IMG/VR virus record: IMGVR_UViG_3300046169_000125
Location: 1 to 60,788 of that record
Origin: a virus
Strand: one strand, 5' to 3'
DNA length: 60,788 bases
Under the pieces are notes generated by a model that searched no databases, had not been told where the DNA came from, and worked only from the letters and a program-made list of their open reading frames with translations. The number at the start of each line of letters is the position of its first letter. Position 1 is the stretch's first letter. Shown here one piece after another: positions 7,425 to 56,776 of the stretch. The position numbers were made by a program, and so were the translations under genes.

Positions 7425-8273
7425 TTATGATCTAGGAAATCTTAAGTTTGTGATTTCAAAGTCAACGAATCCCACAAAAAGAGATGGATCAATATTTTTA
7501 CTAACGCGGTCACTAAGCTTGGAGCAGCGCACATCTTCCACATGAAAAAGATCACGCCCTTTACTGTGAATTAATGTCATATAGTTGAATCCTGTTGTGT
7601 CTCCGTATTCAGTTAATGGATAATCTGAAAAGTCTACTTTTTGAAATACTTCATTCTTTGAGTCGGCAAAAACCGACATTGCTCCATCAAGTTGATAGGT
7701 GTTTTCAGCGAAAACTACGCAACGAATGTTAGTGCTAGTTTTATCTTCTCCGCCAAATGCAAATGGCTCGTTTTCAACCAATTCAGGGTTTACGAAAATT
7801 GCAGGAACAACTTGTTTGTGAGGCGCAATTCCTGAAAGTTCTTGCTTGAACCTCCCATTAGAATCGAATTTGCTCTCCACAATGAGCTGCTCTTCAGTTT
7901 GGTTTGTAATGTACCAATTAAACTCTTTCACAGAATATGCGCCGCTTAGGGCGCTATTATTCGCACCAAAAGATGCATCAAGTATCACTCGACCATCATC
8001 AAAATCAATAATTAATCCGTCCTCTCCACGATCAATAAATGAACCATTATTATATATTCCACTTGGAATCTGTGCTCCATCAATACTTTCATCGAATACC
8101 CATTGCTTGTGTGGACTACTATAAGTTACAAACCCCGAACCAAGTTGGTCATCAACTCCCATTGGGTAAAGTGGGGATACGTAATTTTGGAAAGCTTCTG
8201 CCTTATCCACGACGAAATTGTCGGCCCAGAGCATAAAACTTGTTGTTAATTCATGTTGAAATTGCGGTTTCAT
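7425..8273 (-). CDS. Unrecognised structural protein, neck or tail-completion candidate
   Basis: The 282-residue protein starts at the ATG at 8273, two bases after the stop of the preceding gene. It begins MKPQFQHELTTSFMLWADNFV. It is mostly predicted beta, with no membrane segment, and ends FVGFVDFEITNLRFPRS. Its position between two neck-like genes and the tube gene is where tail-terminator and connector proteins usually lie. I see no diagnostic family motif. It is transcribed with the genes at 8276-9359. Confidence 0.4.
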   Translation of the reverse strand: MKPQFQHELTTSFMLWADNFVVDKAEAFQNYVSPLYPMGVDDQLGSGFVTYSSPHKQWVFDESIDGAQIPSGIYNNGSFIDRGEDGLIIDFDDGRVILDASFGANNSALSGAYSVKEFNWYITNQTEEQLIVESKFDSNGRFKQELSGIAPHKQVVPAIFVNPELVENEPFAFGGEDKTSTNIRCVVFAENTYQLDGAMSVFADSKNEVFQKVDFSDYPLTEYGDTTGFNYMTLIHSKGRDLFHVEDVRCSKLSDRVSKNIDPSLFVGFVDFEITNLRFPRS

Positions 8274-8275
8274 TT

Positions 8276-8899
8276 TTAAAAATATTTACTTGATACTCTT
8301 GATGCTTGTATTGAGTTTAAGTTTGTTTCGAATTGTTGTAATAATTGTTTTATGTATGGTATTTGTACACGTCCTCCCTCTGGTCGATTGCGATTTTGAA
8401 AACCAGCACCACTTCGGCTAGAGTTGATTCGTTTGTGCATGTATTGACCTAGATTGGGAATGCCGCGACCTTCAAGCTCACGCAGCCAACTTGATCCGCT
8501 GGCCCATGGTAGTGGAGTTGCTGCATACAAATCTTGCATTGATGGAGATGTGACCATGTAAGTCCACACAAATCCAAACGTGCCCATTTTGCGGCGGCGT
8601 ATTATAATATCTGTTTTTGCTAGCATTTTTTCGATTGTGCTGACAGGATCTGCGCCAGTCTCAAAACCAATAAATCCAAAAAGATTTCCTTCGGGTAATG
8701 TACCACTAATATTAGAACTTCCTGGGCCAGATCGTAACTCTCTGGTTACTGCGTGACCTTCAAATTCACTCATCATTTTTTGTTTTGCAACGCGAAATTG
8801 CTTTTCAATCAATAATCTTACTTTTAATTGCAGTTCTTTATCTCTACTGAGTTGTCGAGCAATAGTTGTTTTGATTGATCTATTTAGTGGATTGGCCAT
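8276..8899 (-). CDS. Neck or tail-completion candidate, basic
   Basis: The 207-residue, Arg- and Lys-rich protein begins MANPLNRSIKTTIARQLSRDKELQ. It has a helical N-terminal third followed by a region rich in Gly, Pro and Trp (WTYMVTSPSMQDLYAATPLPWASGSSWLRELEGRG), then a basic helical tail. Small basic proteins with this helix-then-beta layout often occupy the HK97 gp10 position in siphophages. That placement rests on gene order rather than a signature. The start overlaps the end of the upstream gene by 20 bases. Confidence 0.4.
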   Translation of the reverse strand: MANPLNRSIKTTIARQLSRDKELQLKVRLLIEKQFRVAKQKMMSEFEGHAVTRELRSGPGSSNISGTLPEGNLFGFIGFETGADPVSTIEKMLAKTDIIIRRRKMGTFGFVWTYMVTSPSMQDLYAATPLPWASGSSWLRELEGRGIPNLGQYMHKRINSSRSGAGFQNRNRPEGGRVQIPYIKQLLQQFETNLNSIQASRVSSKYF

Positions 8900-9359
8900 T
8901 TGCTTCGATGGGTCTCAAAAATAGAGTTGTGAATTGTATTACATCAAACAATCCGTGTGGTCGCGGATCCGATTCAACATGAAACATTCTACCATCAAGT
9001 TCAACGCGTTTTGCTTCTTTTATATACTCGTAATCTTCTACTCTTAATTTGATGCGTACTGTACTGTTTGGATCTGGGCGATTAACTTTAACTTGCGCAT
9101 CTGCTTCTCCAAAATATTCCAAACTGCGATCGGTGTCATATCTAACCCGCGCCTTGAAAACTTTGCGAACAGGAACATTTTCAACGCTTGGCGTATTTTT
9201 TCCTGCATTGCCGTACAGCTTGTTGAATCCTGGATCGGTACTGATAACAACTTTTTGCGCTTCTTTATATACAATAATTTCTCTTCCAAATGTGTCGTGA
9301 AGATCAATCAGGTTTGCCGCAATACTTGCTCGTTGAGAAGATGATAAAAACTCTGCCAT
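8880..9359 (-). CDS. Putative head-closure or head-tail joining protein
   Basis: The 159-residue protein has an N-terminal helix (SSSQRASIAANLIDLHDTFG) and then a beta barrel-like series (REIIVYKEA, VFKARVRYD, VRIKLRVEDYEYIKEAKRVELDGRMFHVESDPRPHG). The closing strands, with a DGRMFHV turn, are typical of stopper-type proteins that seal the head after DNA packaging. It leads a minus-strand operon of neck and tube genes. Its ATG lies six bases after AGTGTAAAA and lacks a Shine-Dalgarno sequence. The assignment comes from fold impression and gene order. Confidence 0.5.
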   Translation of the reverse strand: MAEFLSSSQRASIAANLIDLHDTFGREIIVYKEAQKVVISTDPGFNKLYGNAGKNTPSVENVPVRKVFKARVRYDTDRSLEYFGEADAQVKVNRPDPNSTVRIKLRVEDYEYIKEAKRVELDGRMFHVESDPRPHGLFDVIQFTTLFLRPIEANGQSTK

Positions 9360-11564: not shown

Positions 11565-14500
11565 ATGGCTATTGATCTTGATGTACATGGTAATACAAAA
11601 CCGCTTGAAGCGGCGGTACAGGCGGCTGTAAATAGAATTCGTCGTCAACCAATTAAAATTACGGTTGATGACAAGGGCGCCACCCAGCCATTGGGCAACA
11701 TGAAGCGTGGTGCTGATGAGTTTACCAAATCGATGGAAGCGGCGAATGCTCGTATTCTTGCGTTCGGTGCGAGTATGGCAATCATAAATGGTGTGGCTAA
11801 TGCATTCAAGGGTATGGTCAAAAACCTTGTTGAGGTTGAGAAAGCTATGGCTGACGTTAATGTGGTCATGGGTTTGAGCGCTCAAAACTTGGAAAAATTT
11901 AGTGATGGACTTTTTAAAGTGGCAAAAGAAACTGGTGCGGCATTCAGGGTTGCTGCAGATGCCGCTACAGAATATGCTCGTCAGGGCTTGGGTGTTGAAG
12001 AATCTCTAAAAAGAACGAGAGACGCTTTGGTTCTTACTCGCTTGACTGGCATGGACTCTGCCGAAGCAGTAAAATCCTTGACTGCCGCGATGAACACATA
12101 CGGCACACAAATCAAAGATACCACGCAATTGGTTAGTAAGTTTGCTGCTGTTGATGTTAAGTTTGCGGTTAGCGCCCAAGATTTTGCGGACGCTATTTCT
12201 CGTACTGGTCAATCTGCTCAAAGCGCTGGGGTGAGCATTGACGAGCTTGTGGGTATTGTAACTGCTGCTCAGCAAAAAACTGCTCGTGGTGGTGCGGTTA
12301 TTGGTAATGCGTTGAAAACAATTTTCACAAAAACAGGAAAAACCGATACTCTCAATCAACTTGAAAATTTAGGAATCGCAGTTCGCGATCTTGAGGGAAA
12401 TACAATTGGTGCACAACGCATACTGAATGATCTCGCCAATACGTTTGATACTCTTAGTGCTGCGCAAAAAGCTCAGATTACTCAAACAATGGGCGGTTTG
12501 TTTCACATCAATATTTTGAAAGCTGTTTTGAGTGACGCCGCAAAACAAAATGGTATCATGGCTGAGGCTACCAGAATATCTGCTGGTGCTACAGATGAAG
12601 CTATACAAAAGAATGAAGAGTTGCGCAAAACAATGTCTGCGGTTGCCACAGAAACAGGGCTCGCAATCAAACAAGTTAGTACTCAAATAGGTGAAATAGC
12701 ACTTGCTCCAGGAATGGAAAAGATTCTCAACTCTGTTAAAAGTCTGGCAGAAGGATTGAGTGGAGTGTTGGGAGATGGAGAAAGTACTGGAAGTAGTTTT
12801 GCCACTGGCCTTCTTAAAGGTATTGGTAATGTTATTACTGGGCCAGGACTTGTTGTTCTCGCGGGTGTATTTTTTAAATTATTTGGTCAAGCATTAAAGT
12901 TTACAAAAGAAAGCTTGACATCGTTGGTCGGCGTAACAACCGAAAAACAAAAACAAAAAGCCATACAAACAAGCTTGGTTGCACTGTTTGGTCAAAATGC
13001 AGCGCTCAACAAAGAAATGTTGCGTACTGATATTGGTCGCACCGAAAAAGAAAAAATCATACTAGGCCTACTCAAGGCGCAAGTTGTAGAAGCTAAAGCG
13101 TTGAATACTTTAACTGCTGGCATGGCTGGCACATTGTATCGAAAAGGGTATGGCGCAAATTTAACACCTGTTGGTAAAAAAGCAAGTGGACACATTCCAA
13201 ATTATGCAAATCCAGAACGCGCACAAGCTGCGCAGGGTGGATATGCCGCTGGAAGTATTCGAAGTATGAACATGCCTGGCGAAGGCCCAGTCATATACAA
13301 CAGCGCAGAAACAGTCAAAAATTTCGCAGGCTTTAAACAACCCGCAATCATGCCACCACAATCCAGCAAGGCTGGAAAAAATTATCAACAAGCATTTGGT
13401 AATATACATGGATTCGATCCATATGCTGCGGGGGGATATATACCAAATTTTAAGAAATCGAAAGCGAAAACTAAGGAAAAAGCTGGGCCGCCTATTAATT
13501 TAAATAGTTTGTTTGGGTCGCAAATTAAATCTATGGGAGTTTTGTTAGGTTTTGGGTCAGAGGGACCCGCTAAAGGACAAAAGTATAGTCAAACCTATAA
13601 TAGTTTACCTCCAAATGCTAAAGCGGTGTTAAAGAAGAAAAATATAGTTGATCGTGGTACATCGCAAGTAGTTGCAAAATTGCCAACCAAGGCTGTTTAC
13701 GAAGTAACCGAAGCGGACGTTGGAAAGATTGGAGGGGTTTTAGGAAAAAGCGAATTAGAGAAAAAGCTTTATCACTATGTTGGCCGCCCTTTTGATAAAT
13801 TTTCTCAAGCCATTGGAATGGATATGTTTGGAGGTAAAGTTGGTAAAGCTGGAATTAATGTTTTAAAGACACATATGGAAGGTTCTGTGCTGGGAGGTTT
13901 GTTTGAATCTGCAGTGAGGGGATCTTTAGATAATAAAAAAGTTAAAGATAGTCAAGCTCCTTTTGATTTCACCGGTTCTAACGCTGAGAATATTGCGGGG
14001 TTCATGGGTAACAAGAACTTGAGCCTGATTGAGGCAAAGTATAATTTATCTGCAGCAAAAGGAGGAGGTATTCCAAAAAAAGTTTTAAATTATATTTATA
14101 AAAATTCTAAGGGCTCAACTGAAGTTAGTCATACCAGTGACTTAATAACAAAAAAAGGTGAAGATATTTATGTGGGCGCCGAGAAATTTGACAATACAAA
14201 TAAAGATCAAATTAACAGGCTGGAGGAAGCGGAGCTTCCTACTACTTGGCAAAAATTAAATAAACTATTTAACGCTAGCGGTTTTATTCCCAACTTCGCT
14301 GACCCATTATCTGATGCAATAGGCCGAGAAAAAGCGGCTGGCGTTCCAGTTTCACAAATTCGTGTGGGCTCACACGGCGCACTCATGAGCAAAGGAAATC
14401 CCCTCGGCCTCGGCGTAACCAATACACATGATGAGCCAAATGGTTTGCGTGATGTGTTTGGTGCGAATGGATTTGTGCCGAATTACTTTAACCCCCTAGA

Positions 14501-17500
14501 CGGTATAAAAAGTTCTATAGCAAACACAAAATTTGGACAAAACTGGGAAAAAGCCACTACAGAACACGCCAAAAAAATAGAGAAGTTAAATCGCAGAATA
14601 GAGCAAAGAGTACAAGCTATACAAAAACATAATCAAGAGCTGTCGACACTTACCAAGGGTACTAGCGAGTATAGGGCAGCACAATCAAAACTTAAAAGTA
14701 CTACAAGTAATCTAGATAAAACCAGAGCGAAATTGAGTGTTCTTGAAAAATCTTCAGCCACAGGAATCGGAGGTAGAATGGGAAGGTTATCTTCTGGCCT
14801 TGGGAGGGCTTTTTCAGGAAACACTGGTATGGCAATGATGATGGGAGCACCAATGGCCGCGGGTTTTTTACAACAAGGTGGAATGGGTGCTCAAGGAGGT
14901 AATCAAAGTATGTATGCCGCAGGAGGAGCCTTAACAGGCGCTGCTTCTGGAGCAATGATGGCAAGTGTGATCGCGCCAATGTTTGGACCCGGCGCACCGC
15001 TGGTGATAGCGCTCGGGGGTGCTGTTGGAGCTTATCAGGGTTGGGCGAGTGCAACCGAAGAAAATACAAAAGCTTTAAAAAATGCAGAATTAAAAAGGCA
15101 ACAAGGGGTTGTTTCCTCTTTTGTGACTACAAGTCCAAAGTTTATGCAAAAATTTTCTAAAAACATATTTGATGATATGAGTCAAGAGGGTAAGCAGGTT
15201 ATGAAGATGGCTGCTCCAAAGTACACAGCTACTACGCCTCCCGATATCAGTGAAAAGGATTTTCTTACAAGGGGCCCGAATAACCCAATATTTAAAATGA
15301 AAATACCTTTTATTTCTGACCTTTTTGGCCCGTCAGCAGGAGAGATAGATCAGATCACGAAATATCGTGAGCAAGGAGATCAACAAAATGAATTTCAAAA
15401 AATTCAAAAATACCAAGTCGGCACTATGAAAAAAGCTATAGGCTCTATGGGTGATGAAGAGTTTTTGCTACCATCTTATATAAAAGATAAAGAAGGGAAA
15501 ATACAAAAACAGGATCAACCTGAACGACAAAAAGCATCTGATTATTTAAAGAAATTAGAAAAAATAGATTTTTTTAAAGTTGAGGATACAGGAGATGTAA
15601 AAAGAATTGAGGCGTTAAGATCTGCATTGTATAAAATTTATCAAGAACAAATCACTGCAGAGCACGATCAAAGTGAAGCAATAATTCTACAGTTAAATAT
15701 TCAAAAAGTCATGCTTGAATCTCAAAAAAGAGCAAAGCAAGCACAGTTTAATATTTCTTCCTCCATGCAAGCCCAAGCAAGTAATCTATCTTTAATGGAA
15801 AAAACAATGGGTGGATTTGCAACCGAACAACAGAAGGCTCAATTTAAATATATTGGATCAATAAATAAAGCCGCCGAAACTTATGCATCTTCTGCGCAGC
15901 AAGCTGAGAACGCTTTTGAGTCTAATATGTTGGGGGTACTTAAGGATGATGATGTAAAAAGTAAAGTCAAAACCGCACTAGCAAAGAGAATTAAGGAAAG
16001 GGGCGGCGGAAAAGTAGACGCAAATAAACTTGATGTTTCAGATGAATTAATAAATCTTTCCCAAGAAGAAAGGCAGGAGATGTATAAAGAATTGAAACTT
16101 GGAGACGACATTACTAAAAATATAGAAAACCAAGTTACTGCTCGAGAAAACGCATTAAGCCTTGCAGCGCAGCAAGTAAATCAATCAAACTCAATTGCAC
16201 AGTCAGAATTTAGAGTAAATGACGCTATTGCTAGAAGAAAAGATCTAATAAGTAATTTAAAGTCCGGCGGAGCCTTAATGTCTCAAGCGCTTGGTCATGC
16301 TCAAGCTATGCGAGGAATGGATGCACAAGTGGGCGCTGCACAAAGATTAACTAACGTAGGACCCGGATATCAAACACGTGCCGAGCAAGAAGCTTTTCAA
16401 ATGAGGGAAAAACAAATTGCGCTAGAAGATCAAATAAAAACAATTCGAGAAAACGCCACAATAGAGCTTCAAAAAGAGCAAACTAATCTTGAAGAAATAA
16501 AAATGGAGGAGCAGCAACTTCTAGATTTAAAAGCAAAAAGAGATAGCTTTGTTGGGGCTGGTGCAGAACTTGATGAAGATGACTTAGCTACTTTAAATGG
16601 TTTAATTCAGACTGAAGATAAAAGAAATCAAGCAAAAGAAAAAACACAAAATGCTATAGACAATATACTCAAGAAATCAGAAAAAGAAGTATCTACCGCC
16701 GAAAAACTATTAGCTTTAGAAGAAAAAAGATTAGCCGCAAAGCGCGCGCATGAAACTGGCCCAGGTGCATTTGGCAGAGGAATGAGTGACACCACGAAAT
16801 CAATGCGCGAACAAGTTAAAATGATGGATTACGAACTTGGCAAAAGAATACCAAGCGCTTTTGCCGACGGACTTGCCGGAGCAATGACCGAAGCAATCAA
16901 TGGAACAAAAAGCCTAAAAGATGCATTGACTGATGCCGCGGTTGGATTTCTTGGAATGATTCAACAAGCAATGATGCAAAAAATGGCCTATCAAATGGTG
17001 GGTGCAACGGGATTATTCTCTCGAGGTGGAAATGTTCGCAAATATTCAAAGGGTGGTGGGGTGCCTGCAATGGTAAGCAATGGTGAATATGTTATGGGTC
17101 GCGATGCAGTAAATAAATATGGCGGATCATTCATGCACGGAATGAATGCTGGCGGACGCATACCTGGATTTGCTAGTGGAGGGTCGGTAGAAAATGATTT
17201 ATTATCAAAAGGAAAAATAAGAAGAGAAGGTGCGCCAGGAGGTCCCGCAGCGCAAGGTTCTGCACTGGCATCTAATTTTGGAGGAGGACGAGGATTTGAT
17301 TCTGGTAGATTATATCAAAGAAAAGCAATGAGCGGCTCTTTTTACGCTCAATCTGGAAATGTAGGATTGGGAGAAGATACAAGCGCAATACAAGCAATAC
17401 TTTCAGAAGAAGAACGTCTTCGTCAAGAAGCTGAAGCAAAACGGCAAGCCAAAAAAGCAAAACGTAGACAGTTGCTGGGAATGGTTGCGAGTATTGGATT

Positions 17501-18047
17501 GATGTATGGATTGGGTAAAATGAATTTGTTTGGGTCAAAAACTCCTCAAGGAAGTATGTCTGCTCCGACCCGACCAGGTAGCGTTGGAGCTTGGTTTCTT
17601 AACCCAACAAACAGATACATGGGCGGCCCAATTCGCAAATACGCCAGCGGCGGACACATCGCAGGAAAATCTGGCATCGACCAAATTCCCGCAATGCTCA
17701 GTGAGGGAGAATATGTTATTCGTGCAAGTAGCGCTCGCCAAATTGGCAAGCCAATGCTTGATCAAATAAATGCAGGTAAATTTAATGAAGGAGGACCTGT
17801 CAGCGAAATCGGAGGTTCAAGTGAAACCGGATCGACTGGTGGCAACACAAACAACATTAGTATTTCTGTGAATATGGAACGTGGTTCGTCAAATAAGCAG
17901 CAACAACAAGATGATTCAAGCGGGCAAAATCCTGCAGATAAATCAAATGAAGAGCAAAGTAATGCTAAGCTTGCAGAACGCATCAAACAACAAGTAGTTT
18001 CCGTAATTGTGGAGGAACAACGTCCAGGAGGTTTATTGAGTGATTAA
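11565..18047 (+). CDS. Tail tape measure protein with embedded nuclease-like domain
   Basis: The 2160-residue protein is the largest here. Residues 1-330 match the TP901-type tape measure core (ANARILAFGASMAIINGVA, VEKAMADVNVVMGLS, AATEYARQG, LTGMDSAEAVKSLTAAMNTYG). Helical segments follow, with a hydrophobic stretch near 1120-1170 and long coiled coils from 1350 to 1750. Motifs of the type (G/S)-x-(I/V)-P-N-(F/Y) recur near residues 540, 624, 904 and 967. Between the second and third is a domain with FESAVRG (about 778), APFDFTG (about 799) and LIEAKYN (about 820), a PD-(D/E)XK-like E...D...ExK pattern. Two AMLSEGEYVI-type repeats lie near 1830 and 2050. It sets tail length and may carry a delivered domain. 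AAGGA precedes the ATG. Confidence 0.9.
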   Translation: MAIDLDVHGNTKPLEAAVQAAVNRIRRQPIKITVDDKGATQPLGNMKRGADEFTKSMEAANARILAFGASMAIINGVANAFKGMVKNLVEVEKAMADVNVVMGLSAQNLEKFSDGLFKVAKETGAAFRVAADAATEYARQGLGVEESLKRTRDALVLTRLTGMDSAEAVKSLTAAMNTYGTQIKDTTQLVSKFAAVDVKFAVSAQDFADAISRTGQSAQSAGVSIDELVGIVTAAQQKTARGGAVIGNALKTIFTKTGKTDTLNQLENLGIAVRDLEGNTIGAQRILNDLANTFDTLSAAQKAQITQTMGGLFHINILKAVLSDAAKQNGIMAEATRISAGATDEAIQKNEELRKTMSAVATETGLAIKQVSTQIGEIALAPGMEKILNSVKSLAEGLSGVLGDGESTGSSFATGLLKGIGNVITGPGLVVLAGVFFKLFGQALKFTKESLTSLVGVTTEKQKQKAIQTSLVALFGQNAALNKEMLRTDIGRTEKEKIILGLLKAQVVEAKALNTLTAGMAGTLYRKGYGANLTPVGKKASGHIPNYANPERAQAAQGGYAAGSIRSMNMPGEGPVIYNSAETVKNFAGFKQPAIMPPQSSKAGKNYQQAFGNIHGFDPYAAGGYIPNFKKSKAKTKEKAGPPINLNSLFGSQIKSMGVLLGFGSEGPAKGQKYSQTYNSLPPNAKAVLKKKNIVDRGTSQVVAKLPTKAVYEVTEADVGKIGGVLGKSELEKKLYHYVGRPFDKFSQAIGMDMFGGKVGKAGINVLKTHMEGSVLGGLFESAVRGSLDNKKVKDSQAPFDFTGSNAENIAGFMGNKNLSLIEAKYNLSAAKGGGIPKKVLNYIYKNSKGSTEVSHTSDLITKKGEDIYVGAEKFDNTNKDQINRLEEAELPTTWQKLNKLFNASGFIPNFADPLSDAIGREKAAGVPVSQIRVGSHGALMSKGNPLGLGVTNTHDEPNGLRDVFGANGFVPNYFNPLDGIKSSIANTKFGQNWEKATTEHAKKIEKLNRRIEQRVQAIQKHNQELSTLTKGTSEYRAAQSKLKSTTSNLDKTRAKLSVLEKSSATGIGGRMGRLSSGLGRAFSGNTGMAMMMGAPMAAGFLQQGGMGAQGGNQSMYAAGGALTGAASGAMMASVIAPMFGPGAPLVIALGGAVGAYQGWASATEENTKALKNAELKRQQGVVSSFVTTSPKFMQKFSKNIFDDMSQEGKQVMKMAAPKYTATTPPDISEKDFLTRGPNNPIFKMKIPFISDLFGPSAGEIDQITKYREQGDQQNEFQKIQKYQVGTMKKAIGSMGDEEFLLPSYIKDKEGKIQKQDQPERQKASDYLKKLEKIDFFKVEDTGDVKRIEALRSALYKIYQEQITAEHDQSEAIILQLNIQKVMLESQKRAKQAQFNISSSMQAQASNLSLMEKTMGGFATEQQKAQFKYIGSINKAAETYASSAQQAENAFESNMLGVLKDDDVKSKVKTALAKRIKERGGGKVDANKLDVSDELINLSQEERQEMYKELKLGDDITKNIENQVTARENALSLAAQQVNQSNSIAQSEFRVNDAIARRKDLISNLKSGGALMSQALGHAQAMRGMDAQVGAAQRLTNVGPGYQTRAEQEAFQMREKQIALEDQIKTIRENATIELQKEQTNLEEIKMEEQQLLDLKAKRDSFVGAGAELDEDDLATLNGLIQTEDKRNQAKEKTQNAIDNILKKSEKEVSTAEKLLALEEKRLAAKRAHETGPGAFGRGMSDTTKSMREQVKMMDYELGKRIPSAFADGLAGAMTEAINGTKSLKDALTDAAVGFLGMIQQAMMQKMAYQMVGATGLFSRGGNVRKYSKGGGVPAMVSNGEYVMGRDAVNKYGGSFMHGMNAGGRIPGFASGGSVENDLLSKGKIRREGAPGGPAAQGSALASNFGGGRGFDSGRLYQRKAMSGSFYAQSGNVGLGEDTSAIQAILSEEERLRQEAEAKRQAKKAKRRQLLGMVASIGLMYGLGKMNLFGSKTPQGSMSAPTRPGSVGAWFLNPTNRYMGGPIRKYASGGHIAGKSGIDQIPAMLSEGEYVIRASSARQIGKPMLDQINAGKFNEGGPVSEIGGSSETGSTGGNTNNISISVNMERGSSNKQQQQDDSSGQNPADKSNEEQSNAKLAERIKQQVVSVIVEEQRPGGLLSD

Positions 18048-23561: not shown

Positions 23562-26500
23562 GTGAAAACGGTATATCTACATGGAGAGCTAGGCAAACGC
23601 TTTGGTAAAAAGTGGGAACTTGCTGTGAACAATATCGAGGAGGCGTTTTCTGCTATAGAGGCAAATTGCGAAGGATTTTTTAATTATGTGTACAAGTCTT
23701 CAGCTAAAGGTATTGATTATATTATACTCACAAAAGATCCAAAATCTATAAAAGATAAGGATGATTTACGCGAAAATATAATTGATGAAAAATTATCGAA
23801 AGTAAATTCAAAACAAAAAGAAATACATCTTTTGAGTCCTGTTGGTGGGTCTGCTGTTTTTGGGGTTGGTGGATCTCTTGCGTTGTTAAAGGTAGGGGGA
23901 GGTTTAACGACTCTTGGTATGGTTGTTGCTTCTGTGGCAATATCTTTTGCAATGCAAGCTTTGACTAAACCGCCAAAGCCACCCCAGCGAAAAGATTCAA
24001 TAAGTACAAAATCATTTTTAATTTCAGGAGGTATAACTAGGCAAGCTCAAGGAATAGCTGTTCCTTTGGGTTATGGGCGTTTAAAAATTGGCCCAACAAA
24101 CATCGCATCAAAAAAAAGTAGTAAAAAACTGTCTAAATATAATTCTGGAAGTTCGGCAACTTTGGAAAGTTATACAGAGTCAGAGTTTATAGACTTACTT
24201 TCCGAAGGTCCGATACATGGCTTTGTTGATCAATACGGAGTAACTCTGCCCGCTGATGATGTTTTTGAGGGAATATACTTAAATGATGTACAGGTAAGAA
24301 ACTCGGCCTCCCCGGGAGAACAGGTTGGTACATATAATTATATATTAAATGAAAATCAAAAAAATTCTCAAGGTAGGCCTAAATATAAAATTGGATCAGA
24401 CGAAGAGAGTATAATATTGACCAAAGGTGTGTTTCACGTAAGGGAATACGACGTTATATTGTATGGACCTAGTCCATATACCACAGCTGATACAGCAAAC
24501 GAAGCTATAGAAAAGGGTTCGAAGGTAGCGTCTCATTTTGTTTCAAATTCATCAGTAGATGAAATAACTATTTCGATTCGCACAGAATTATATGTACAGA
24601 ATATGGAGACGGGGGGAATGAATTCAAATACTGTTTTGTTTGCGATTTTAGTTTCAAGAGGCAATAAAGATTTTAATATTCTTGAGCCTGAATCTGGGTG
24701 TATAATGATTACAAAAAAAGGTGATGGCCTCAGTTGGGATGAAGGCATCAACAGATTTGAAATGTCAGGAATTGCTACCTCTACTTATCAATTTGATATA
24801 AGCTTTAAGGTCGATAGAAATTTAGATATTTCTGACGCTAGTGGAGGAATAACTTTTAAGATAATTAAAATTTCTCCTGAATACGATCCCTCTGTTAAGG
24901 GTAGTTCTGGGGGTGTAGGAAGGGTAAGGTCTATTCAATTGTCACATGTAGAGGAAAAAATAAGTGAAAATTTAATATATCCACATAGTGCTATGGTTAA
25001 AATATTAGTTGATAGTAAAAACTTTTCAAGTATACCTGATCGATCATATCACTTGAAGTTGAAGAAGGTTGTTATTCCTGATAATTATGATCCGATATCC
25101 AGAAAGTATACCGGACCTTGGAATGGACTATTTAAGGGTCAGTTGCACGGAAATATGTCTGTACATTCAATAGCTGATTCAGATAAATATTGGACGGATA
25201 ATCCTGCTTGGATATTTTTTGATTTATTGTATAACGCTAGATATGGAGTGGGTAAATATGGACTCGAGGAGGAGAATGTTGATAAGTGGCAATTATATAA
25301 AATTGCAAAATACTGTGATGAGCTTGTAGAGACTGATTACCCTATTGAGACTGAAAATGGTCAACCGATTGCATTTACATGTTTAAATAATTTGAATGAA
25401 TCTGTTGAACCTAATCAATTACAAATTAAAATAAAATATAGTGAAACAGAAATAATAGCTCCAACCCCTGAACCTCCAAGCTATGATCATAGTACATACG
25501 AGGTTATTAATGGAAATTATACGTACTCACAAGCCAAAGCAGATGCAATATCTAGAGGTGGAAGACTTGCTATTATAAGAAATGCTCAAGAAAGTCAACA
25601 GGTAATTACCGCCTACAACTCCGGCATTTCGCACGGATTGGGAAGTTTTTACCGTGCATGGATTGGTTTGGAGCAGGTTGGTTTGGATAATTCAAGCTGG
25701 ACTTGGTCAGACGGTTCAAGTTTAACTTATACAAATTGGGGGGGGAATAACCCAAATAACGATTCGGAAACTAGGGGTTTAATTGGTTGGGATGGGAAAC
25801 ATAGAACAACATGGAATGATGCACAGTCATCCACGGTAGCTTCTTATATACTTGAAAAAAAGGGTGTGGATGTTAATAATCCAACACCAACCCTACTACA
25901 ATTAAATAAAGAAAAATTTATTTCTAAATTCGGCGAAGGTAACTCACTTAAGGGTAAAAAGGTGGCATTTTTTATACCAAAAACATCCAGCTCTCTTACA
26001 GAGGAGTCTTTGATCGAAAAAGCTGTTGCTAGAGAAGGTAAAATGAAAATTGAAGAAAGAATGATTTTAAGTTCAGACCCGTCAACATTTAGTGTGATTG
26101 TTTCTGGGCCAAAAATAGAGGATAATAAAGGTTCGTTTGATTTTGTAGTTGGTGCATGCGCTGTCCAATTAAACCACCCTGTAGTTGAACCTAGATTCAC
26201 TGCAAATTTATACCTAACTGACAGAGCAGAGGCTTTAGAGGTTATTAAAAATTTAGCATCAATGTTTCGCGGAATATCTGCATACTCTGCCGGTAAAATA
26301 TTGGCAATTCAAGATTCTCAGAAAAAACCAATACAACTTTTTAATAATTCAAATGTCGATAACAACGGTTTTATTTATATGGGTGTGCAGAAAAACAAGA
26401 GGATTACAGCCTCTTTAGTGAGGTTTAATAATTCTGTAAAAAATTATAAGCCCGATTTAGTTTATGAAGAAGATTCCGAAGCTATACAAAAATTTGGCTA

Positions 26501-28430
26501 CATAGAGAATGAAACAATGGCCCTTGGTGTAACTTCTGAAAGTCAAGCCCGCAGATTTGCAAAATGGATACTTCTTACGTCTCAATTTGAAACCGAAACA
26601 ATAACCTTTAACACTGGTCAAGAAGCTTCTTATCTGTTTCCTGGGTGCATATTTGAAGTTTCTGACGAGTTAAGAGCTGGACAAACAAAAAGTGGTAGGA
26701 TTTTGGATATCGCTCCTTCTCGAAAACTCGAAATAAATGGAGTACAGTATACTCACAATGACCCGTATATACTTATAGATAAATCTGTTAAAGATGATCC
26801 TGTATTATCAAGGGTGGAACTTACGGTTTGTGTAGGGCTAGAAAATTCAAATCAAGAAAACTTAGACTTAAGAGCTCCATCAGAGGCTTCTCAGGAAGAT
26901 CAGGATCAAGAAATTGAATCGATTTTTACACCTCAAATTTATAAGTTTGATGCGTTATTGAAAGAATCTGATAATATTAAAAAGGGACCAAGGGGACAAA
27001 AAACGATTGCTTGCGAATTATTGCTTAAAATACCATTGGAGATTGACCTTGCAAAAAATAGAATAAAAAAATATAACCATAATTTTGATTCTGGTGAAAA
27101 AATAATTTTAAGAAGCGAAGGTGTTCTTCCTGGCGGTTTACAAGAAGACAGGGTATACTTTGTTGTTAATAAAACAAAAAATACATTTCAAATATCACTT
27201 GATGACCCGTCTTCCGTGCCCCAGTATCAGGTTGTTAATATAATTGATGAAGGAAAAGATTTTCTTGGTGTTGATGGAGGGGATCATTATTTTTGTCCGT
27301 TTTCCATACTTGGTGTTAATAATGTAAGAACACGAGAGGCGTTAGATCAAGTATCTATAGGCTCCAGTTATTCAATAAAAGGTCTAATTGGCGCTTCTTC
27401 CAAGGGGGGATTGGGTTATCAAAACTTAATACAAAACCTTGAAATAGAGGGTTCGTTAACTGATGGTTGGGGAGTCTCTTCGATATTTGGATATATAAAT
27501 ATCGAAAATAATGACGGTTGGGTGTATTCTGTTCAGTTAAATGAGTGGATTTTTCTTAAAAATAAAATAGAGAATAATTCTGGTTGGTTCTATTTAGATT
27601 CTTTGGGTTGGATTTACTTGAAGAGTGATGGAGATAATTATTTGTGGTATATATCTTCACAGGATGAATGGGTTCGCTCTGAAAAATATTCTAATAAGTT
27701 TTATAGATTTCAGCAATCTACAAGTGGCATATCTAGTGGAGACTCAAAAAAAATAAATAACAAGACAATATTTGTTAAGAACATATTTTCTAATCACGGT
27801 TACTTCTTTTCGTTTCTTGAAAACTCTTCAGATATTACTTCAACTAATCCAAGTTCATCGTTTAATACTACTATATCTGAAGTTAATCCAGGAATGAGTT
27901 CATCAATTATTTCTGACGTAATATCAGTTACTTCAGAGGAGTCTTTACAAGGTCAGGACTCAATAAGAATAATATTTCAATCCGGGCACGGGCTAGATTT
28001 AAGGAGTAATAATATTGTTAATATATCAGGTTTTTCTAGCGATAATTCTGCTCTTAACTCCCATATAAATCAACAAGGTATTGGTACTATATTTATTAAT
28101 TCAACCGTGATAGAGTTAGTAAACTCAAATTCTGCCGCGACCTTAATCGGTTCTTCTACGATTTCTTCAAAAGGTACATTAAGTTTCATTAACTCGGCGA
28201 AAAGTAAAGTAGAAAGAATGCTTGAATCTCAATTATTTAGAGCAGTAAGCGTAAAAGAATTGTCAGAAAATAAATATGAAGTTGTTGGTTTAGAATATAA
28301 TAGTAGTAAATTTAATGCTGTAGATAAAAAAGGCGCAATTAAGAAACCTCATTTGCCTATTCCCCCACAAGCAGATATTGCTGCCCCAACTGCCCCAGCC
28401 GGATTAACGTTGAATAATTTAACCTTGTAA
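23562..28430 (+). CDS. gpI-gpJ fusion: tail tip hub protein with C-type lectin domain
   Basis: The 1622-residue protein starts at GTG after TTAAGG. Residues 1-75 match lambda gpI (VYLHGELGKRFG), and 95-140 give its Gly-rich hydrophobic segment (GGSLALLKVGGGL). From about 150 it follows gpJ: ISGGITRQAQGIAVPLGYG, SEFIDLLSEGPIHGFV, and WTDNPAWIFFDLLYNARYGVG. A C-type-lectin-like domain is inserted near residues 645-767 (ARAWIGL-type RAWIGLEQ, WTWSDGSSLTYTNWGG, NPNND, TTWNDAQ). gpJ resumes with FTANLYLTDRAEALEVIKNLASMFRG. Trp-rich GWxY repeats lie near 1300-1390. It is the receptor-facing hub. The gpJ C-terminal domains appear in the next gene. Confidence 0.85.
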   Translation: MKTVYLHGELGKRFGKKWELAVNNIEEAFSAIEANCEGFFNYVYKSSAKGIDYIILTKDPKSIKDKDDLRENIIDEKLSKVNSKQKEIHLLSPVGGSAVFGVGGSLALLKVGGGLTTLGMVVASVAISFAMQALTKPPKPPQRKDSISTKSFLISGGITRQAQGIAVPLGYGRLKIGPTNIASKKSSKKLSKYNSGSSATLESYTESEFIDLLSEGPIHGFVDQYGVTLPADDVFEGIYLNDVQVRNSASPGEQVGTYNYILNENQKNSQGRPKYKIGSDEESIILTKGVFHVREYDVILYGPSPYTTADTANEAIEKGSKVASHFVSNSSVDEITISIRTELYVQNMETGGMNSNTVLFAILVSRGNKDFNILEPESGCIMITKKGDGLSWDEGINRFEMSGIATSTYQFDISFKVDRNLDISDASGGITFKIIKISPEYDPSVKGSSGGVGRVRSIQLSHVEEKISENLIYPHSAMVKILVDSKNFSSIPDRSYHLKLKKVVIPDNYDPISRKYTGPWNGLFKGQLHGNMSVHSIADSDKYWTDNPAWIFFDLLYNARYGVGKYGLEEENVDKWQLYKIAKYCDELVETDYPIETENGQPIAFTCLNNLNESVEPNQLQIKIKYSETEIIAPTPEPPSYDHSTYEVINGNYTYSQAKADAISRGGRLAIIRNAQESQQVITAYNSGISHGLGSFYRAWIGLEQVGLDNSSWTWSDGSSLTYTNWGGNNPNNDSETRGLIGWDGKHRTTWNDAQSSTVASYILEKKGVDVNNPTPTLLQLNKEKFISKFGEGNSLKGKKVAFFIPKTSSSLTEESLIEKAVAREGKMKIEERMILSSDPSTFSVIVSGPKIEDNKGSFDFVVGACAVQLNHPVVEPRFTANLYLTDRAEALEVIKNLASMFRGISAYSAGKILAIQDSQKKPIQLFNNSNVDNNGFIYMGVQKNKRITASLVRFNNSVKNYKPDLVYEEDSEAIQKFGYIENETMALGVTSESQARRFAKWILLTSQFETETITFNTGQEASYLFPGCIFEVSDELRAGQTKSGRILDIAPSRKLEINGVQYTHNDPYILIDKSVKDDPVLSRVELTVCVGLENSNQENLDLRAPSEASQEDQDQEIESIFTPQIYKFDALLKESDNIKKGPRGQKTIACELLLKIPLEIDLAKNRIKKYNHNFDSGEKIILRSEGVLPGGLQEDRVYFVVNKTKNTFQISLDDPSSVPQYQVVNIIDEGKDFLGVDGGDHYFCPFSILGVNNVRTREALDQVSIGSSYSIKGLIGASSKGGLGYQNLIQNLEIEGSLTDGWGVSSIFGYINIENNDGWVYSVQLNEWIFLKNKIENNSGWFYLDSLGWIYLKSDGDNYLWYISSQDEWVRSEKYSNKFYRFQQSTSGISSGDSKKINNKTIFVKNIFSNHGYFFSFLENSSDITSTNPSSSFNTTISEVNPGMSSSIISDVISVTSEESLQGQDSIRIIFQSGHGLDLRSNNIVNISGFSSDNSALNSHINQQGIGTIFINSTVIELVNSNSAATLIGSSTISSKGTLSFINSAKSKVERMLESQLFRAVSVKELSENKYEVVGLEYNSSKFNAVDKKGAIKKPHLPIPPQADIAAPTAPAGLTLNNLTL
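25495..25866 (+). other. C-type lectin-like domain inside the tail tip hub
   Basis: Within the hub protein, residues 645-767 show the canonical lectin landmarks in order: YTYSQAKADAISRGGRLAII, AWIGL, WTWSDGS, NWGGNNPNND and TTWNDA. NPNND resembles the calcium and sugar-binding EPN/QPD loop, and WND is the second calcium-site motif. It suggests direct glycan binding at the tail tip. Confidence 0.8.
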
Positions 28431-36369: not shown

Positions 36370-37528
36370 GATTATTGTCGTTATAAAGTTTTAGATTGAT
36401 TGCGTCTTCCCAAAATTCATCGCAGTCGATAACGGTATTGTGTTCTCCCTCGATACCGTTCCTCCATGCCGCTTTGCTAGCATAGATTTTATTATCTGAT
36501 ACGATGACTTGTGAGCTTTTATAACGAGTATTATTGCATATTTTATCATGGTTGTCAATATCATTCTTTGTTTTTTGTTCAAGAAAATGCACATCCCAAT
36601 CGAAGAACTTTAATCGCACATCATTTATTATGTCATTATCTTTGCATATTAATTTTAATTTTATACCTAATTTCTTGCATGCTTTAAAAAATGTATCGTC
36701 ATCATCTGGTTGTACAAAATAATTGATTTGATTTACATTGTTTTTGATTGCCTGTAAGTAGTTGATTTGCATAGGTTGGTCAAGGAATAGGTTTACCTTG
36801 CGGGTGTATGCCCATTGAGCGATATTCTGTTCGTTAAAATGTTCGTGACCAAGTATGTTTGCGGGTTGACCTGACGCAAAGCTTTTGCCGAGTACGCAAT
36901 TTGGAACAACTGCAAGTGAGCTAGCGTGATATGCGGCGCCAGTATGAAAAGTTTTAATGTTATGTAGATTATTTTTTATATTCAATAACCTCAAGACGGA
37001 TTCCGCGATTTGCTCGGGCTTGATTTCATTGATTGTTTTTGGATATTCATTGTCAGAAAAACTTGCTTTTCTTTTGGTGCGATCTGGTTCAAGTAAAATT
37101 TGACTTGCTTGGTCGCCCCAATATGGCCCACAACATTCTTTGTATAATGTAGAATATAAATTCACTATCTTTTTATCGAAGCCGCTTGCAATATGAGTAC
37201 TGAATGAATCAGTGCCAAAATGAAGCATTGAATTTTTGATGATGTATGCTGCTTGACGAATAGTTGTTTGACCTTGGTGGTGCAAGCAATGACTTACCTT
37301 AGATTCTTCTTTATTCCCTATTTGTATAATTTTAATATTTTCTTTATCTAAATAAGGGTGAATTAGGTCTGTTACGTCATTGTAATAATCGTAAGTTTTT
37401 GATTGAATGCGGTTGCTTGCATGTAATGTGATATACTTATCCGGTGTAACTGGGAAGTAAGAAGTTTCGATTGAGGGCCTGTCTATTTTAACACCGCAGG
37501 AAAGTGCATATTGTTCGACTAGGTGCAT
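36359..37528 (-). CDS. C-terminal half of a GT9 glycosyltransferase fused to an unknown domain
   Basis: Residues 1-185 of this 389-residue protein match the C-terminal, donor-binding half of family GT9 (heptosyltransferase-type): KYITLHASNR, IIQIGNKEE, GQTTIRQAAYIIKNSMLHFGTDSFSTHIAS, KIVNLYS and GPYWGD. The N-terminal half of the same fold lies at the end of the upstream gene (37519-39426), with which it overlaps by 10 bases at TTATGCACCTAG. The remaining 200 residues form a separate domain I do not recognise (LAVVPNCVLGKSFASGQPANILGHEHF). The pair may work as a two-chain enzyme or be joined by a -1 frameshift. Confidence 0.65.
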   Translation of the reverse strand: MHLVEQYALSCGVKIDRPSIETSYFPVTPDKYITLHASNRIQSKTYDYYNDVTDLIHPYLDKENIKIIQIGNKEESKVSHCLHHQGQTTIRQAAYIIKNSMLHFGTDSFSTHIASGFDKKIVNLYSTLYKECCGPYWGDQASQILLEPDRTKRKASFSDNEYPKTINEIKPEQIAESVLRLLNIKNNLHNIKTFHTGAAYHASSLAVVPNCVLGKSFASGQPANILGHEHFNEQNIAQWAYTRKVNLFLDQPMQINYLQAIKNNVNQINYFVQPDDDDTFFKACKKLGIKLKLICKDNDIINDVRLKFFDWDVHFLEQKTKNDIDNHDKICNNTRYKSSQVIVSDNKIYASKAAWRNGIEGEHNTVIDCDEFWEDAINLKLYNDNNHGT

Positions 37529-39426
37529 AATTCAAATTGTATTTTATCTTTACCGTTATGTGGAAAGTTGACGATTCGTTGGGTGCCAAGAAATGGAATG
37601 AATGCAATTTCGAAATATCCTTCGTGATCGCCTTGACCCTCCATAAGTGGTAGGTTTGCCAGTGAGTCGTGATAAGGTATGCATTTATGAATATAAGGGT
37701 TTCCATCTAACACTTCAAAATACTGTGGGCGAGTGGCAAAGTAAATATTTAAATTTTTGTATTGTTTTTTTATGTTTGGAAGAAGTGAAGTTGTGAGATA
37801 CACGTCCCCAATTCTTTCTGGCATTACAATCAACAACCTTTTTCCTTTATCATCTTCGTCTAATAGGTCACTTAAATCTACCTTTTTGTTTTCACGGTTT
37901 TCTTTTTCTGCAACACTTCTGAAATATTTTAATACGTCTTCTCTTTTTAAGTCATCATTTAACCTTTTCATCCAATGCTTGTGCCCTTCATCTGTTGGAT
38001 ATGTCTCTACTTTAAGTATGTTTTTATATAAATCACTTAACCATTCTGAGTCATTATCTGTTTGTATTGGTTCATAATTTGGATCTCTTTCCTCTGTCTC
38101 AAAATCAAAATTCCAATCAACTGGCTGCATTTCATCCAAAACCTTTTCGAGCTGCTTACCTATAACTTCTACACTGTAATTATCTATAACGAATTGTCTC
38201 GCCTGCTTACCCATTTTTTCACGCTTTTTGGGTTTCATTTCATAAACTTTTCGAAGTTGGTAAGCTATACTTTTGGGGTCGGTACTTGCTTTAATGAATT
38301 GAGTTCCTGGTTCACGGTATTCTGTCCAACTAAGAGGTAAACTTTCAGCCTCAGGTACGCAACAATCCTCTCCGCAACTATAATTTGTTACAAGAGTAAC
38401 TAGCTCTGTTAACTTAGCTTCTTGAATGGGAATTTCTTGGCCACCACTTGTAAATGGGTGACAATAAACATTCATTAAATTATAAATTTCATTGAGCTGA
38501 TCTTCATCTACTCCAGCTCTAGTACTTGTTGTTACTTGAGTTTTTTCTCCACCACAAAATTTACAATCCTGATTTTCTCCCGAAAAATTTTTTACTTCAT
38601 ACTCTTTGCATTCTTTACAATAATAAGTTGTTAGAATTTTTGTTGGATCTATATCTTTTTCTTTCAGTAGTCGTGGTATGTCCCAACCTTCACCCCAGTG
38701 AGTATGCAACAGTAATTTTGCATTGCATGTTGGGTTTTGTTGACAAAAGATTTTGAATCCTTCGAGAAGATTCGGGACGCTTTTGCGAAGTTGGTTGCGA
38801 AAAACAAAACCAATGATGAAATCATCCGAGTTGACATTATGTCTCTGACGAAGCTCCCAACGTTTTTCATCTTTAAGTTTATAAAAATTAGATGTGTCTA
38901 ATGCGCCACGAAGAGTCTTTACGTGATCTTGACCGATTTCATTTAAAGATCTTTGAGCGAAACTTGCCCATGTAAAATAGTTTTTAATTTTTGGGGCAGC
39001 TTTAACTGCGTCAGGTAAGATCGGAAGACTGTCTAACGTTGTCCAAATCATTGAATTTATCTTATTCCACCAAGTTTTTTCAGTGAAACCATTGAAAGCC
39101 CAAATATCTTCAATTCCAATGTAAACGTCAGGCTTTTCACGTTCGATGATTTTATCTATCATCTCAGCTCCGTATCCAGCATTTCTAGCTAATTGAGGAT
39201 CCTGTTGTAGTTTTTTTATAGTTCTGGAGTCGGAAGGTAGGGAACCTTCAGCTTTCCATGGTAGGTTTTTCAAACTTGGATCACCCCACCTTATTCCGTT
39301 TGAGAATTCTACTAAATCATATTTACCAGTTTTCTGAAGATGTATCAGTATATTTTTGGTACATTTACCAAATCCAGTAAAAGCTTTACAGTGATTGCTA
39401 TGTATTAAAACCTTCTTTTTTTTCAT
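37519..39426 (-). CDS. Multidomain glycosyltransferase: GT4, DUF4214-like, GT9 N-half
   Basis: The 635-residue protein starts MKKKKVLIHSNHCKAFTGFGKCTKN, a GT-B acceptor domain. A zinc-ribbon-like insert with CxxC pairs (YYCKECKE and CKFCGG) occurs near 267-297. The donor-domain signature follows: NVYCHPFTSGGQEIPIQEAKLTELVTLV. Residues 455-510 (SEWLSDLYKNILKVETYPTDEG, KHWMKRLNDDLKREDVL) resemble the DUF4214 linker found in bacterial glycosyltransferases. From about 530 a GT9 N-terminal Rossmann half begins (RLLIVMPERIGDVYLTTSLLPNIKK) and ends at the stop; its partner half is the next gene. Cytoplasmic transfer of sugars to a glycan or protein is likely. Confidence 0.75.
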   Translation of the reverse strand: MKKKKVLIHSNHCKAFTGFGKCTKNILIHLQKTGKYDLVEFSNGIRWGDPSLKNLPWKAEGSLPSDSRTIKKLQQDPQLARNAGYGAEMIDKIIEREKPDVYIGIEDIWAFNGFTEKTWWNKINSMIWTTLDSLPILPDAVKAAPKIKNYFTWASFAQRSLNEIGQDHVKTLRGALDTSNFYKLKDEKRWELRQRHNVNSDDFIIGFVFRNQLRKSVPNLLEGFKIFCQQNPTCNAKLLLHTHWGEGWDIPRLLKEKDIDPTKILTTYYCKECKEYEVKNFSGENQDCKFCGGEKTQVTTSTRAGVDEDQLNEIYNLMNVYCHPFTSGGQEIPIQEAKLTELVTLVTNYSCGEDCCVPEAESLPLSWTEYREPGTQFIKASTDPKSIAYQLRKVYEMKPKKREKMGKQARQFVIDNYSVEVIGKQLEKVLDEMQPVDWNFDFETEERDPNYEPIQTDNDSEWLSDLYKNILKVETYPTDEGHKHWMKRLNDDLKREDVLKYFRSVAEKENRENKKVDLSDLLDEDDKGKRLLIVMPERIGDVYLTTSLLPNIKKQYKNLNIYFATRPQYFEVLDGNPYIHKCIPYHDSLANLPLMEGQGDHEGYFEIAFIPFLGTQRIVNFPHNGKDKIQFELCT

Positions 39427-44151: not shown

Positions 44152-44700
44152 ATGAAACTCATAGGAATATGTGGCTTAGCTAGATGTGGTAAGGATAGTT
44201 TATTCGACCTATCAAAACCATTCTTCGATTCCGCAGGTAAGAAATACAAAAGGTACGCGTTCGCGGACTCATTAAAAAAAGAAGCAGATGAACTACTCTC
44301 AAAGTATGTTGGTATATCTGCCTTTACGGAAGATACATCTCAAAAGCAAACAATAAGACCATTTTTGGTTACATACGGAACTCACGTTCGAAGAAAATTA
44401 AATAAGAATTGTTGGATCGACAAAATCAAAGATGATGTTCTTAGGGATCTAAGTAGCGAAGTTTATGTATTTGTAACAGATGTTCGATTCGAAAACGAGA
44501 TTGATTGGATTCATGAGATGGGCGGAGAGGCAATACATATCACTAGAACGGGTAATGTAGCACCAAACCAAGAGGAGTTAGATAACGACCCCATACTCAA
44601 AAATAAATCAAGAAACCATATTGAATGGAGTGATTTCGATCTTGAAAACATGGAAGAAATATCGAATAAAGTAAATCAAGTGTTATCATCTATATTATGA
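44152..44700 (+). CDS. Deoxynucleoside monophosphate kinase
   Basis: The 182-residue protein has the P-loop GICGLARCGKDS at residues 4-15, as in phage dNMP kinases. Then YRF-type FADSLKKEADELLS, VTYGTHVRRKLNKNCWIDKI, and VFVTDVRFENEIDWIHEMGGEAIHITR follow, the last being the characteristic DVRFxNE substrate and lid segment. It phosphorylates dNMPs to dNDPs for phage DNA synthesis. It follows two bases after the first early gene and overlaps the sigma gene by four bases. Confidence 0.8.
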   Translation: MKLIGICGLARCGKDSLFDLSKPFFDSAGKKYKRYAFADSLKKEADELLSKYVGISAFTEDTSQKQTIRPFLVTYGTHVRRKLNKNCWIDKIKDDVLRDLSSEVYVFVTDVRFENEIDWIHEMGGEAIHITRTGNVAPNQEELDNDPILKNKSRNHIEWSDFDLENMEEISNKVNQVLSSIL

Positions 44701-45293: not shown

Positions 45294-45691
45294 ACAAATA
45301 TATAGCATTAGGAAATTTAACGCGCGACCCAAAGTTCCGCGAAATCAAAGGAGATAATAAAGTTTGCGACTTCGCAGTTGCAATTAACAATAAAGTTAAT
45401 AATAGCGTCTTTTATATTGACGTAGAGACATGGAATAGCGTAGCAGAAAACTGCAACCGCTTCTTAAGTAAGGGAAGAAAAGTATTGGTCGAAGGAAGAC
45501 TCGCTTCAAGCAGCTGGAAGACGAAAGATGGAGAAAATCGCACTCGAACATATTGTGTTGCAGAAAAAGTAACATTTCTTGATAAGTCTGAAGATTCTTC
45601 CAGCTCAGGACAATCAAGCACCAAAGAACCTCAAGCCAAAGAACCTCAAGCCGAAGAAGCTGACGACGAATTTTCAGATATTCCATTCTGA
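45290..45691 (+). CDS. ssb: Single-stranded DNA-binding protein
   Basis: The 133-residue protein begins MNKYIALGNLTRDPKFREIKGDNKVCDFAVAINNKV, the SSB OB-fold opening. It continues with FYIDVETWNSVAENCNRFLSKGRKVLVEGRLASSSWKTKDG. A low-complexity linker (KEPQAKEPQA) leads to the acidic tip FSDIPF. It coats replication intermediates and recruits partner enzymes through that tip. The start at 45290 overlaps the sigma stop (ATGA); a frame from 45188 would only add non-homologous residues. Confidence 0.95.
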   Translation: MNKYIALGNLTRDPKFREIKGDNKVCDFAVAINNKVNNSVFYIDVETWNSVAENCNRFLSKGRKVLVEGRLASSSWKTKDGENRTRTYCVAEKVTFLDKSEDSSSSGQSSTKEPQAKEPQAEEADDEFSDIPF

Positions 45692-45692
45692 T

Positions 45693-56584: not shown

Positions 56585-56776
56585 ATGATACAATTTTACA
56601 ATGTAAAGAAAAAACAAAAAGTTAAAGTTGACCCAACTAAAATAACAAAGCATGCATATGAAAAAACCGCTAAAAGTGGCAAGCTTACGATTCGATATGC
56701 GTTAAAAGCTGTGGACGAAGATGGCACAAAGCTCACCAAGTTCTGCAGTAAAGCAGATTATGACTCAATAAAATAG
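56585..56776 (+). CDS. Small basic protein, unrecognised
   Basis: The likely start is ATG 56585 (MIQFYNVKKKQKVKVDPTKI), giving 63 basic residues with strands such as KLTIRYALKAVDEDGTKLTKFCSK. A longer frame from 56528 overlaps the J-domain gene. It ends overlapping the convergent transferase gene by 19 bases. Function unknown; small basic nucleic-acid-binding proteins look like this. Confidence 0.55.
   Translation: MIQFYNVKKKQKVKVDPTKITKHAYEKTAKSGKLTIRYALKAVDEDGTKLTKFCSKADYDSIK

Follow-up and report, generated by a model that had tools for sequence, protein, structure and literature searches.

Motif-bordered, exchangeable nuclease-like cassettes in a phage tape measure protein

The tape measure protein (TMP) encoded in the window, by which we mean the whole 60,788-base virus record analyzed here, contains a cassette that is bordered by short IPN(F/Y) peptide motifs, carries the catalytic signature of PD-(D/E)XK nucleases, is under purifying selection and has been exchanged between phages. 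From these features we infer a nuclease activity, a route of delivery, a proteolytic step and a target, and propose that the TMP has a cargo slot whose exchanged nuclease-like cassettes would be delivered and would cleave nucleic acid early in infection. We assign this reading a probability of roughly 0.6. The features on which the argument turns are as follows.

11565..18047, plus strand: TMP gene, an open reading frame (ORF) of 2160 aa with a PF10145 match
11922..12497, plus strand: PhageMin_Tail core (residues 120-311; PF10145), the conserved chassis
12819..12908, plus strand: transmembrane (TM)-like hydrophobic segment before the cargo slot (residues 419-448), from hydrophobicity, also in relatives
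13185..13205, plus strand: motif copy 1, SGHIPNY (residues 541-547)
13431..13451, plus strand: motif copy 2, GGYIPNF (residues 623-629), left cassette border from DNA breakpoints
13452..14276, plus strand: exchangeable cassette (residues 630-904), from breaks in DNA homology with relatives
13689..14126, plus strand: PD-(D/E)XK-like nuclease domain (residues 709-854), from a profile match (E 1e-28 on the identical TMP of L002)
13893..13907, plus strand: G777 to E781 (GxxFE), predicted helix, from alignment and AF2
13965..13967, plus strand: D801, from alignment
14031..14039, plus strand: E823-x-K825, predicted strand, from alignment and AF2
14079..14081, plus strand: K839 in the following helix, a position that is K or Q in 89 of 89 relatives
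14277..14297, plus strand: motif copy 3, SGFIPNF (residues 905-911), right cassette border from DNA breakpoints
14298..14465, plus strand: 56-aa 'DEP' element (residues 912-967), conserved in relatives
14466..14486, plus strand: motif copy 4, NGFVPNY (residues 968-974)
14952..15029, plus strand: second hydrophobic segment, Gly/Ala-rich (residues 1130-1155)

A tape measure chassis and its peptide motifs

Tape measure proteins are rulers inside phage tails that cross into the host at infection, and are usually regarded as scaffolds and membrane channels. The window protein belongs to PF10145 (PhageMin_Tail at residues 120-311, E 5.8e-27, 95 bits against a cut-off of 33), and its gene stands in a tail gene cluster with minor tail proteins downstream. 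Like TMPs of the TP901-1/lambda type, which share PF10145, it combines an N-terminal PhageMin_Tail domain with hydrophobic segments and large size, but the cultured-phage matches listed cover window residues up to ~447 only. Among the matches listed, its N-terminal domain is common to 104 of 105 N-complete relatives. Just ahead of the cargo, all 67 N-complete TMPs have a TM-like segment; such a segment lies inside the cargo in 2 of the 67 and after it in 41.

Elsewhere in the window, an 861-aa protein (48566-51151) matches a PHROG tail-sheath family (E 8e-48), and the other tail genes look siphophage-like. A GpJ-like tail protein (Phage-tail_3; 23562-28430) includes a C-type lectin domain, and its neighbor is a 2138-aa protein with a CBM_5_12 carbohydrate-binding module.

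The earlier note described an insert bounded by GGYIPNF and SGFIPNF, with further motif copies near residues 540 and 967, and the four copies indeed begin at 623, 905, 541 and 968. A degenerate fifth copy, GGRIPGF, occurs at residue 1863 of the TMP, and a six-frame scan of the whole window found the motif nowhere else. At cassette borders the consensus is A-(A/S)-(G/S)-G-(F/Y)-(I/V)-P-N-F-A. The DNA pattern for GG(F/Y)IPNFA picked out at least 120 viral stretches and that for SG(F/Y)IPNFA 75; nearly all ORFs found with the motif pattern are very large and nearly all are TMPs. With at least ~180 non-redundant ORFs, nearly all TMPs, carrying the motif at domain borders, the association exceeds chance. 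A genome collection gave 16 pattern matches, about the chance number, of which only L198 and L205, both fragments of MAGs, are real.

The motif is kept as peptide rather than as DNA, with codon identity between copies of 0.53 against 0.47 expected, a result on which we reject the idea that the motif is conserved mainly as a DNA signal for recombination. A protein-level role, as a protease site or a docking peptide, is therefore likely. Between the last two motifs, after the cargo, lies the DEP element (PLxDAIxRExAAGVPxSQIRV...NPxGLxVxNTRDEPxG), which is conserved far above the cargo. Of the 51 complete TMPs among the matches listed, 45 show a DEP-like pattern, and the element matched no solved structure.

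Exchange of cassettes at the motif borders

That the motifs delimit swappable modules, as the earlier note had suggested, is strongly supported by the TMPs of relatives, in which different inserts lie between the same motifs and other modules can occupy the same slot. The DNA of the window and that of L301, for example, are 93% identical over codons 0-631, have no identity over codons 631-905 and are again 94.5% identical over codons 905-1873. The window and four relatives (L300, L301, L303 and L307) have TMP N-termini that are 98% identical and five different cassettes (23-42% amino acid identity), all of which keep the catalytic signature, and L329, whose N-terminus is 95% identical to that of the window, carries a sixth. 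The same cassette can also be found on diverged chassis, L329 and L305 sharing a 100%-identical cassette on chassis that are 85% identical. The pairs L024/L076, L106/L129 and L152/L021, among others, show the same pattern of breaks at the motifs. When pairs are counted regardless of shared ancestry, the right ends of DNA homology fall within 10 codons of a motif in 124 of 153 cases (81%, against 8% for random positions) and the left ends in 50% (8% expected). The flanks of exchanged cassettes are 90-98% identical in nucleotide sequence and the borders are sharp.

Synonymous divergence gives a similar picture. The nuclease-like domains of L092 and L129 are 98% identical in amino acid sequence with a synonymous difference of 0.06, against 81% and 0.37 for their N-termini. 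Between L002, whose TMP region equals that of the window, and L003, dS is 2.38 in the N-terminus and 0.52 in the cassette; the cassette, with the lower value, has therefore travelled. These comparisons strongly support a recombination that carries entire cassettes from phage to phage and whose breakpoints fall on the motifs. The 7.6 kb upstream is collinear between the window and both L301 and L307, though the cassettes differ. Thus no upstream neighbor gene was exchanged along with the cassette, and a linked immunity gene moving with it was not found in these 7.6 kb.

A nuclease-like domain and the slot's other modules

FESAVRG, APFDFTG and LIEAKYN, the strings in which the earlier note saw a nuclease core, start at residues 780, 798 and 821, where that note had put them, and thus place the putative catalytic residues at E781, D801, E823 and K825. 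The domain carries the E..D..(D/E)xK signature of PD-(D/E)XK nucleases, and its catalytic columns are near-invariant among relatives (E/D in 87 of 87, D in 88 of 89, D/E in 89 of 89 and K in 89 of 89), as is the G column, despite a mean column identity of ~15% across 90 distinct domain sequences; the first position of (D/E)xK is D in 49 and E in 40. In close pairs, a dN/dS of 0.09-0.31 indicates function and purifying selection.

A hidden Markov model of the domain, seeded with five inserts from other phages and then iterated, finds it in 95 of 126 ORFs, in 132 of 179 in a larger set and in 46 of 51 complete IPNF TMPs, all among the motif matches listed; none of the ORFs lacking the motif, among 3593 ORFs, contains it. 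In a motif-independent sample of 75 distinct TMPs, gathered by the N-terminal domain alone, 69 have the motif, 55 have at least two copies and 58 have the nuclease-like domain. The earlier description of an insert interrupting the TMP thus stands as to an enzyme-like insert but not as to an interruption of a protein otherwise without it, since most members of this TMP family carry the insert, in a fixed slot behind the TM-like segment at about residue 430. A tblastn search for cassette relatives in 50,697 records of cultured phages found none.

The domain is a candidate member of the PD-(D/E)XK superfamily. Profile searching, which the earlier note had proposed, gave no family match in Pfam, PHROG, NCBIfam, PADLOC or PDB sequences, and profile-profile comparison by hhalign with three genuine families of the superfamily, UPF0102, Mrr_cat and VRR_NUC, gave none either. 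AF2 models of the window domain (pTM 0.63) and of a short member, from L121 (pTM 0.78), both place the signature in the order helix(E)-strand(D)-helix-strand(D/ExK)-helix, but Foldseek searches with the two models returned no PD-(D/E)XK structure. A weak chain of profiles connects the domain with other nuclease-like IPNF modules (P 0.0016), which are in turn connected with UPF0102 (P 0.0015); for comparison, UPF0102 and VRR_NUC, real members of the superfamily, score P 0.004 against each other. The invariant columns of alignment A3, which comprises 11 other nuclease-like modules, were set aside as circular, the sequences having been chosen by eye for the motif.

What the cassette domain has in common with PD-(D/E)XK nucleases is a helix predicted to bear E, then D, then a strand predicted to bear (D/E)xK, with D and E interchangeable and with K or Q in the next helix. 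In contrast to those nucleases, it has a long spacing from D801 to E823 (22 residues, with a helix predicted between them) and an N-terminal three-strand meander, and it has no detectable link to any described family. The name 'PD-(D/E)XK-like' that the earlier note had used draws support from the signature and from the predicted helices and strands on which its residues fall, whereas neither a profile family nor a Foldseek match backs it; with only weak profile links and no structural match, we therefore keep the '-like'.

In other relatives the slot houses modules of other types, singly or one after another. The TMP of L117, with eight IPNF motifs, has a PolyA_pol/CCA-adding-like module (7575-8978; Pfam E 9e-15), and those of L043 and L037 have GNAT modules (Pfam E 7e-8 and 7e-5). 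A P-loop module of ~155 aa with the sequence GPAGSGKST, labeled from sub-threshold Pfam matches and a Walker A motif seen by eye, occurs in L020, L024, L067, L076, L098 and L108, and is followed directly by the nuclease-like domain in several TMPs; in further TMPs it precedes other cargo. An SNase-like module scores below threshold (E 0.014), and ART-, kinase-, HAD- and metallopeptidase-like modules are proposed from motifs seen by eye or sub-threshold matches, including HE..H motifs seen by eye in two relatives for the metallopeptidase-like type. Module type can differ even among L105, L148 and L112, whose N-termini are 92-96% identical, and L098, L117 and L123 have several modules each, of which only part are confirmed by Pfam. 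The window TMP has one recognized enzyme-like domain, and Pfam gave no match to a zincin-like processing peptidase within it.

Proposed cargo delivery and competing explanations

We propose that the cargo slot lies between an N-terminal chassis, formed by PhageMin_Tail and the TM-like segment near residue 430, and a downstream hydrophobic and coiled part. Motif-bordered, enzyme-like cassettes fill this slot; in the window and most relatives they carry the fast-diverging PD-(D/E)XK-like domain, and other TMPs have further modules beside it or in its place. Within the TMP, the domain would travel in the tail lumen and, once the TMP leaves the tail before the DNA does, could be delivered at the inner membrane or across it, possibly being freed by proteolysis at the motifs. 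It could then cleave nucleic acid at the start of infection, whether host DNA, plasmids, prophages, defense elements or rival phage genomes. Siphophage TMPs reach the host inner membrane and are labeled there during DNA entry (PMC13190303), and delivery of cargo to the cytoplasmic side is therefore plausible; a TMP channel has been proposed for a marine siphophage (PMC10276861).

Could the cassette instead be an active enzyme that serves the phage's own genome, by trimming, repair or recombination of entering DNA, or that serves virion maturation, with its variation due only to neutral drift and recombination? The near-universal presence of the domain in the TMP family (46 of 51 complete TMPs among the matches listed) would suit such a role, as would the virion proteins of REase fold that serve their own phages' packaging or recombination (PMC7824862). 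A housekeeping nuclease would, however, be expected to track its chassis, and the cassettes move independently of theirs; versions differ widely between near-identical phages, and in some TMPs the slot holds modules of quite another kind. Fast exchange together with conserved catalysis appears to fit conflict better than housekeeping, and we regard the own-genome role as unlikely.

A structural insert, acting as a spacer, a chaperone-binding segment or packing for the lumen, with the E, D and ExK residues holding the fold or a metal rather than catalyzing, seems somewhat less likely still. Its location inside the tail ruler and a fold search that shows no nuclease are consistent with such an insert, and the tube or a chaperone could dock at the motif peptide. 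Against it stand the near-invariance of precisely a charged set (E..D..D/E-x-K..K), with D and E interchangeable, where the rest of the family is ~15% identical, and the presence of recognized enzymes between these motifs in relatives. Least probable is a selfish or homing element whose nuclease cuts differing TMP genes during co-infection and which uses gene conversion at the motif borders to spread, as a nuclease-like domain exchanged with sharp borders between similar flanks might suggest, but no splicing (intein) elements were recognized, non-nuclease modules share the slot, close relatives are equally nuclease-bearing with no empty site seen, and motif copies barely exceed the expected codon identity.

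Polymorphic toxin systems, including phage MuF toxins, join a constant delivery part to exchangeable toxin-like domains. The TMP with its cargo slot would have the same arrangement, but its cassettes are internal to the polypeptide and, in the upstream 7.6 kb, no immunity gene is exchanged alongside; such toxins are touched on in two of the papers cited here (PMC5512222, PMC7824862). Polyvalent proteins are large phage proteins with disparate enzyme domains, among them kinases, GNATs, ARTs, nucleases and peptidases, that are predicted to be injected with the DNA (Iyer et al. 2017, PMC5512222). The module classes of IPNF TMPs resemble theirs; here, by contrast, the chassis is the TMP itself, one short peptide motif borders the modules and a single nuclease-like family predominates. 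The text of that paper uses neither 'tape measure' nor 'TMP'. We read the cassette as related in concept to injected polyvalent proteins, with the TMP as its carrier. SNIPE, a host defense nuclease, acts at siphophage TMPs (PMC13190303) and so likewise places a nuclease where the TMP delivers phage DNA, whereas the nuclease-like domain described here is part of the phage TMP. A search of the open-licence literature, with subscription papers and preprints outside its scope, found no published description of motif-bordered cargo in TMPs.

More broadly, these TMPs may form an open effector-delivery chassis in a widespread uncultured lineage, with IPNF-bordered cassettes, mostly of an undescribed nuclease family whose high polymorphism would be maintained by conflict, being shuffled between phages, carried in the tail, injected and freed by proteolysis at the motifs; we hold this wider picture tentatively, as a possibility somewhat short of even odds. 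If the proposal of delivered cargo is true, the tail ruler doubles as a weapons rack, restocked by exchange at defined peptide borders. Several questions could then be put to the test: what accompanies the first protein that goes in before the phage DNA, how a tail tube conducts folded enzymes, and which targets, in hosts or rivals, lie behind cassette diversification. The cassettes would also provide a nuclease-like family that is large and undescribed, along with cases of cargo exchange in nature.

Other genes in the window include a deoxynucleoside monophosphate kinase and several glycosyltransferases (44152-44697, 45579-46748, 37519-39426 and 56758-58911), which could hypermodify the phage DNA, a change that could shield it from the nuclease the phage itself would carry, or could be surface glycan genes. 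An ORF at 53988-55850 is built largely from 54-base (18-aa) tandem repeats, and a minus-strand ORF at 51186-53522 contains 111-base repeats that apparently encode D-rich, calcium-binding-like repeats.
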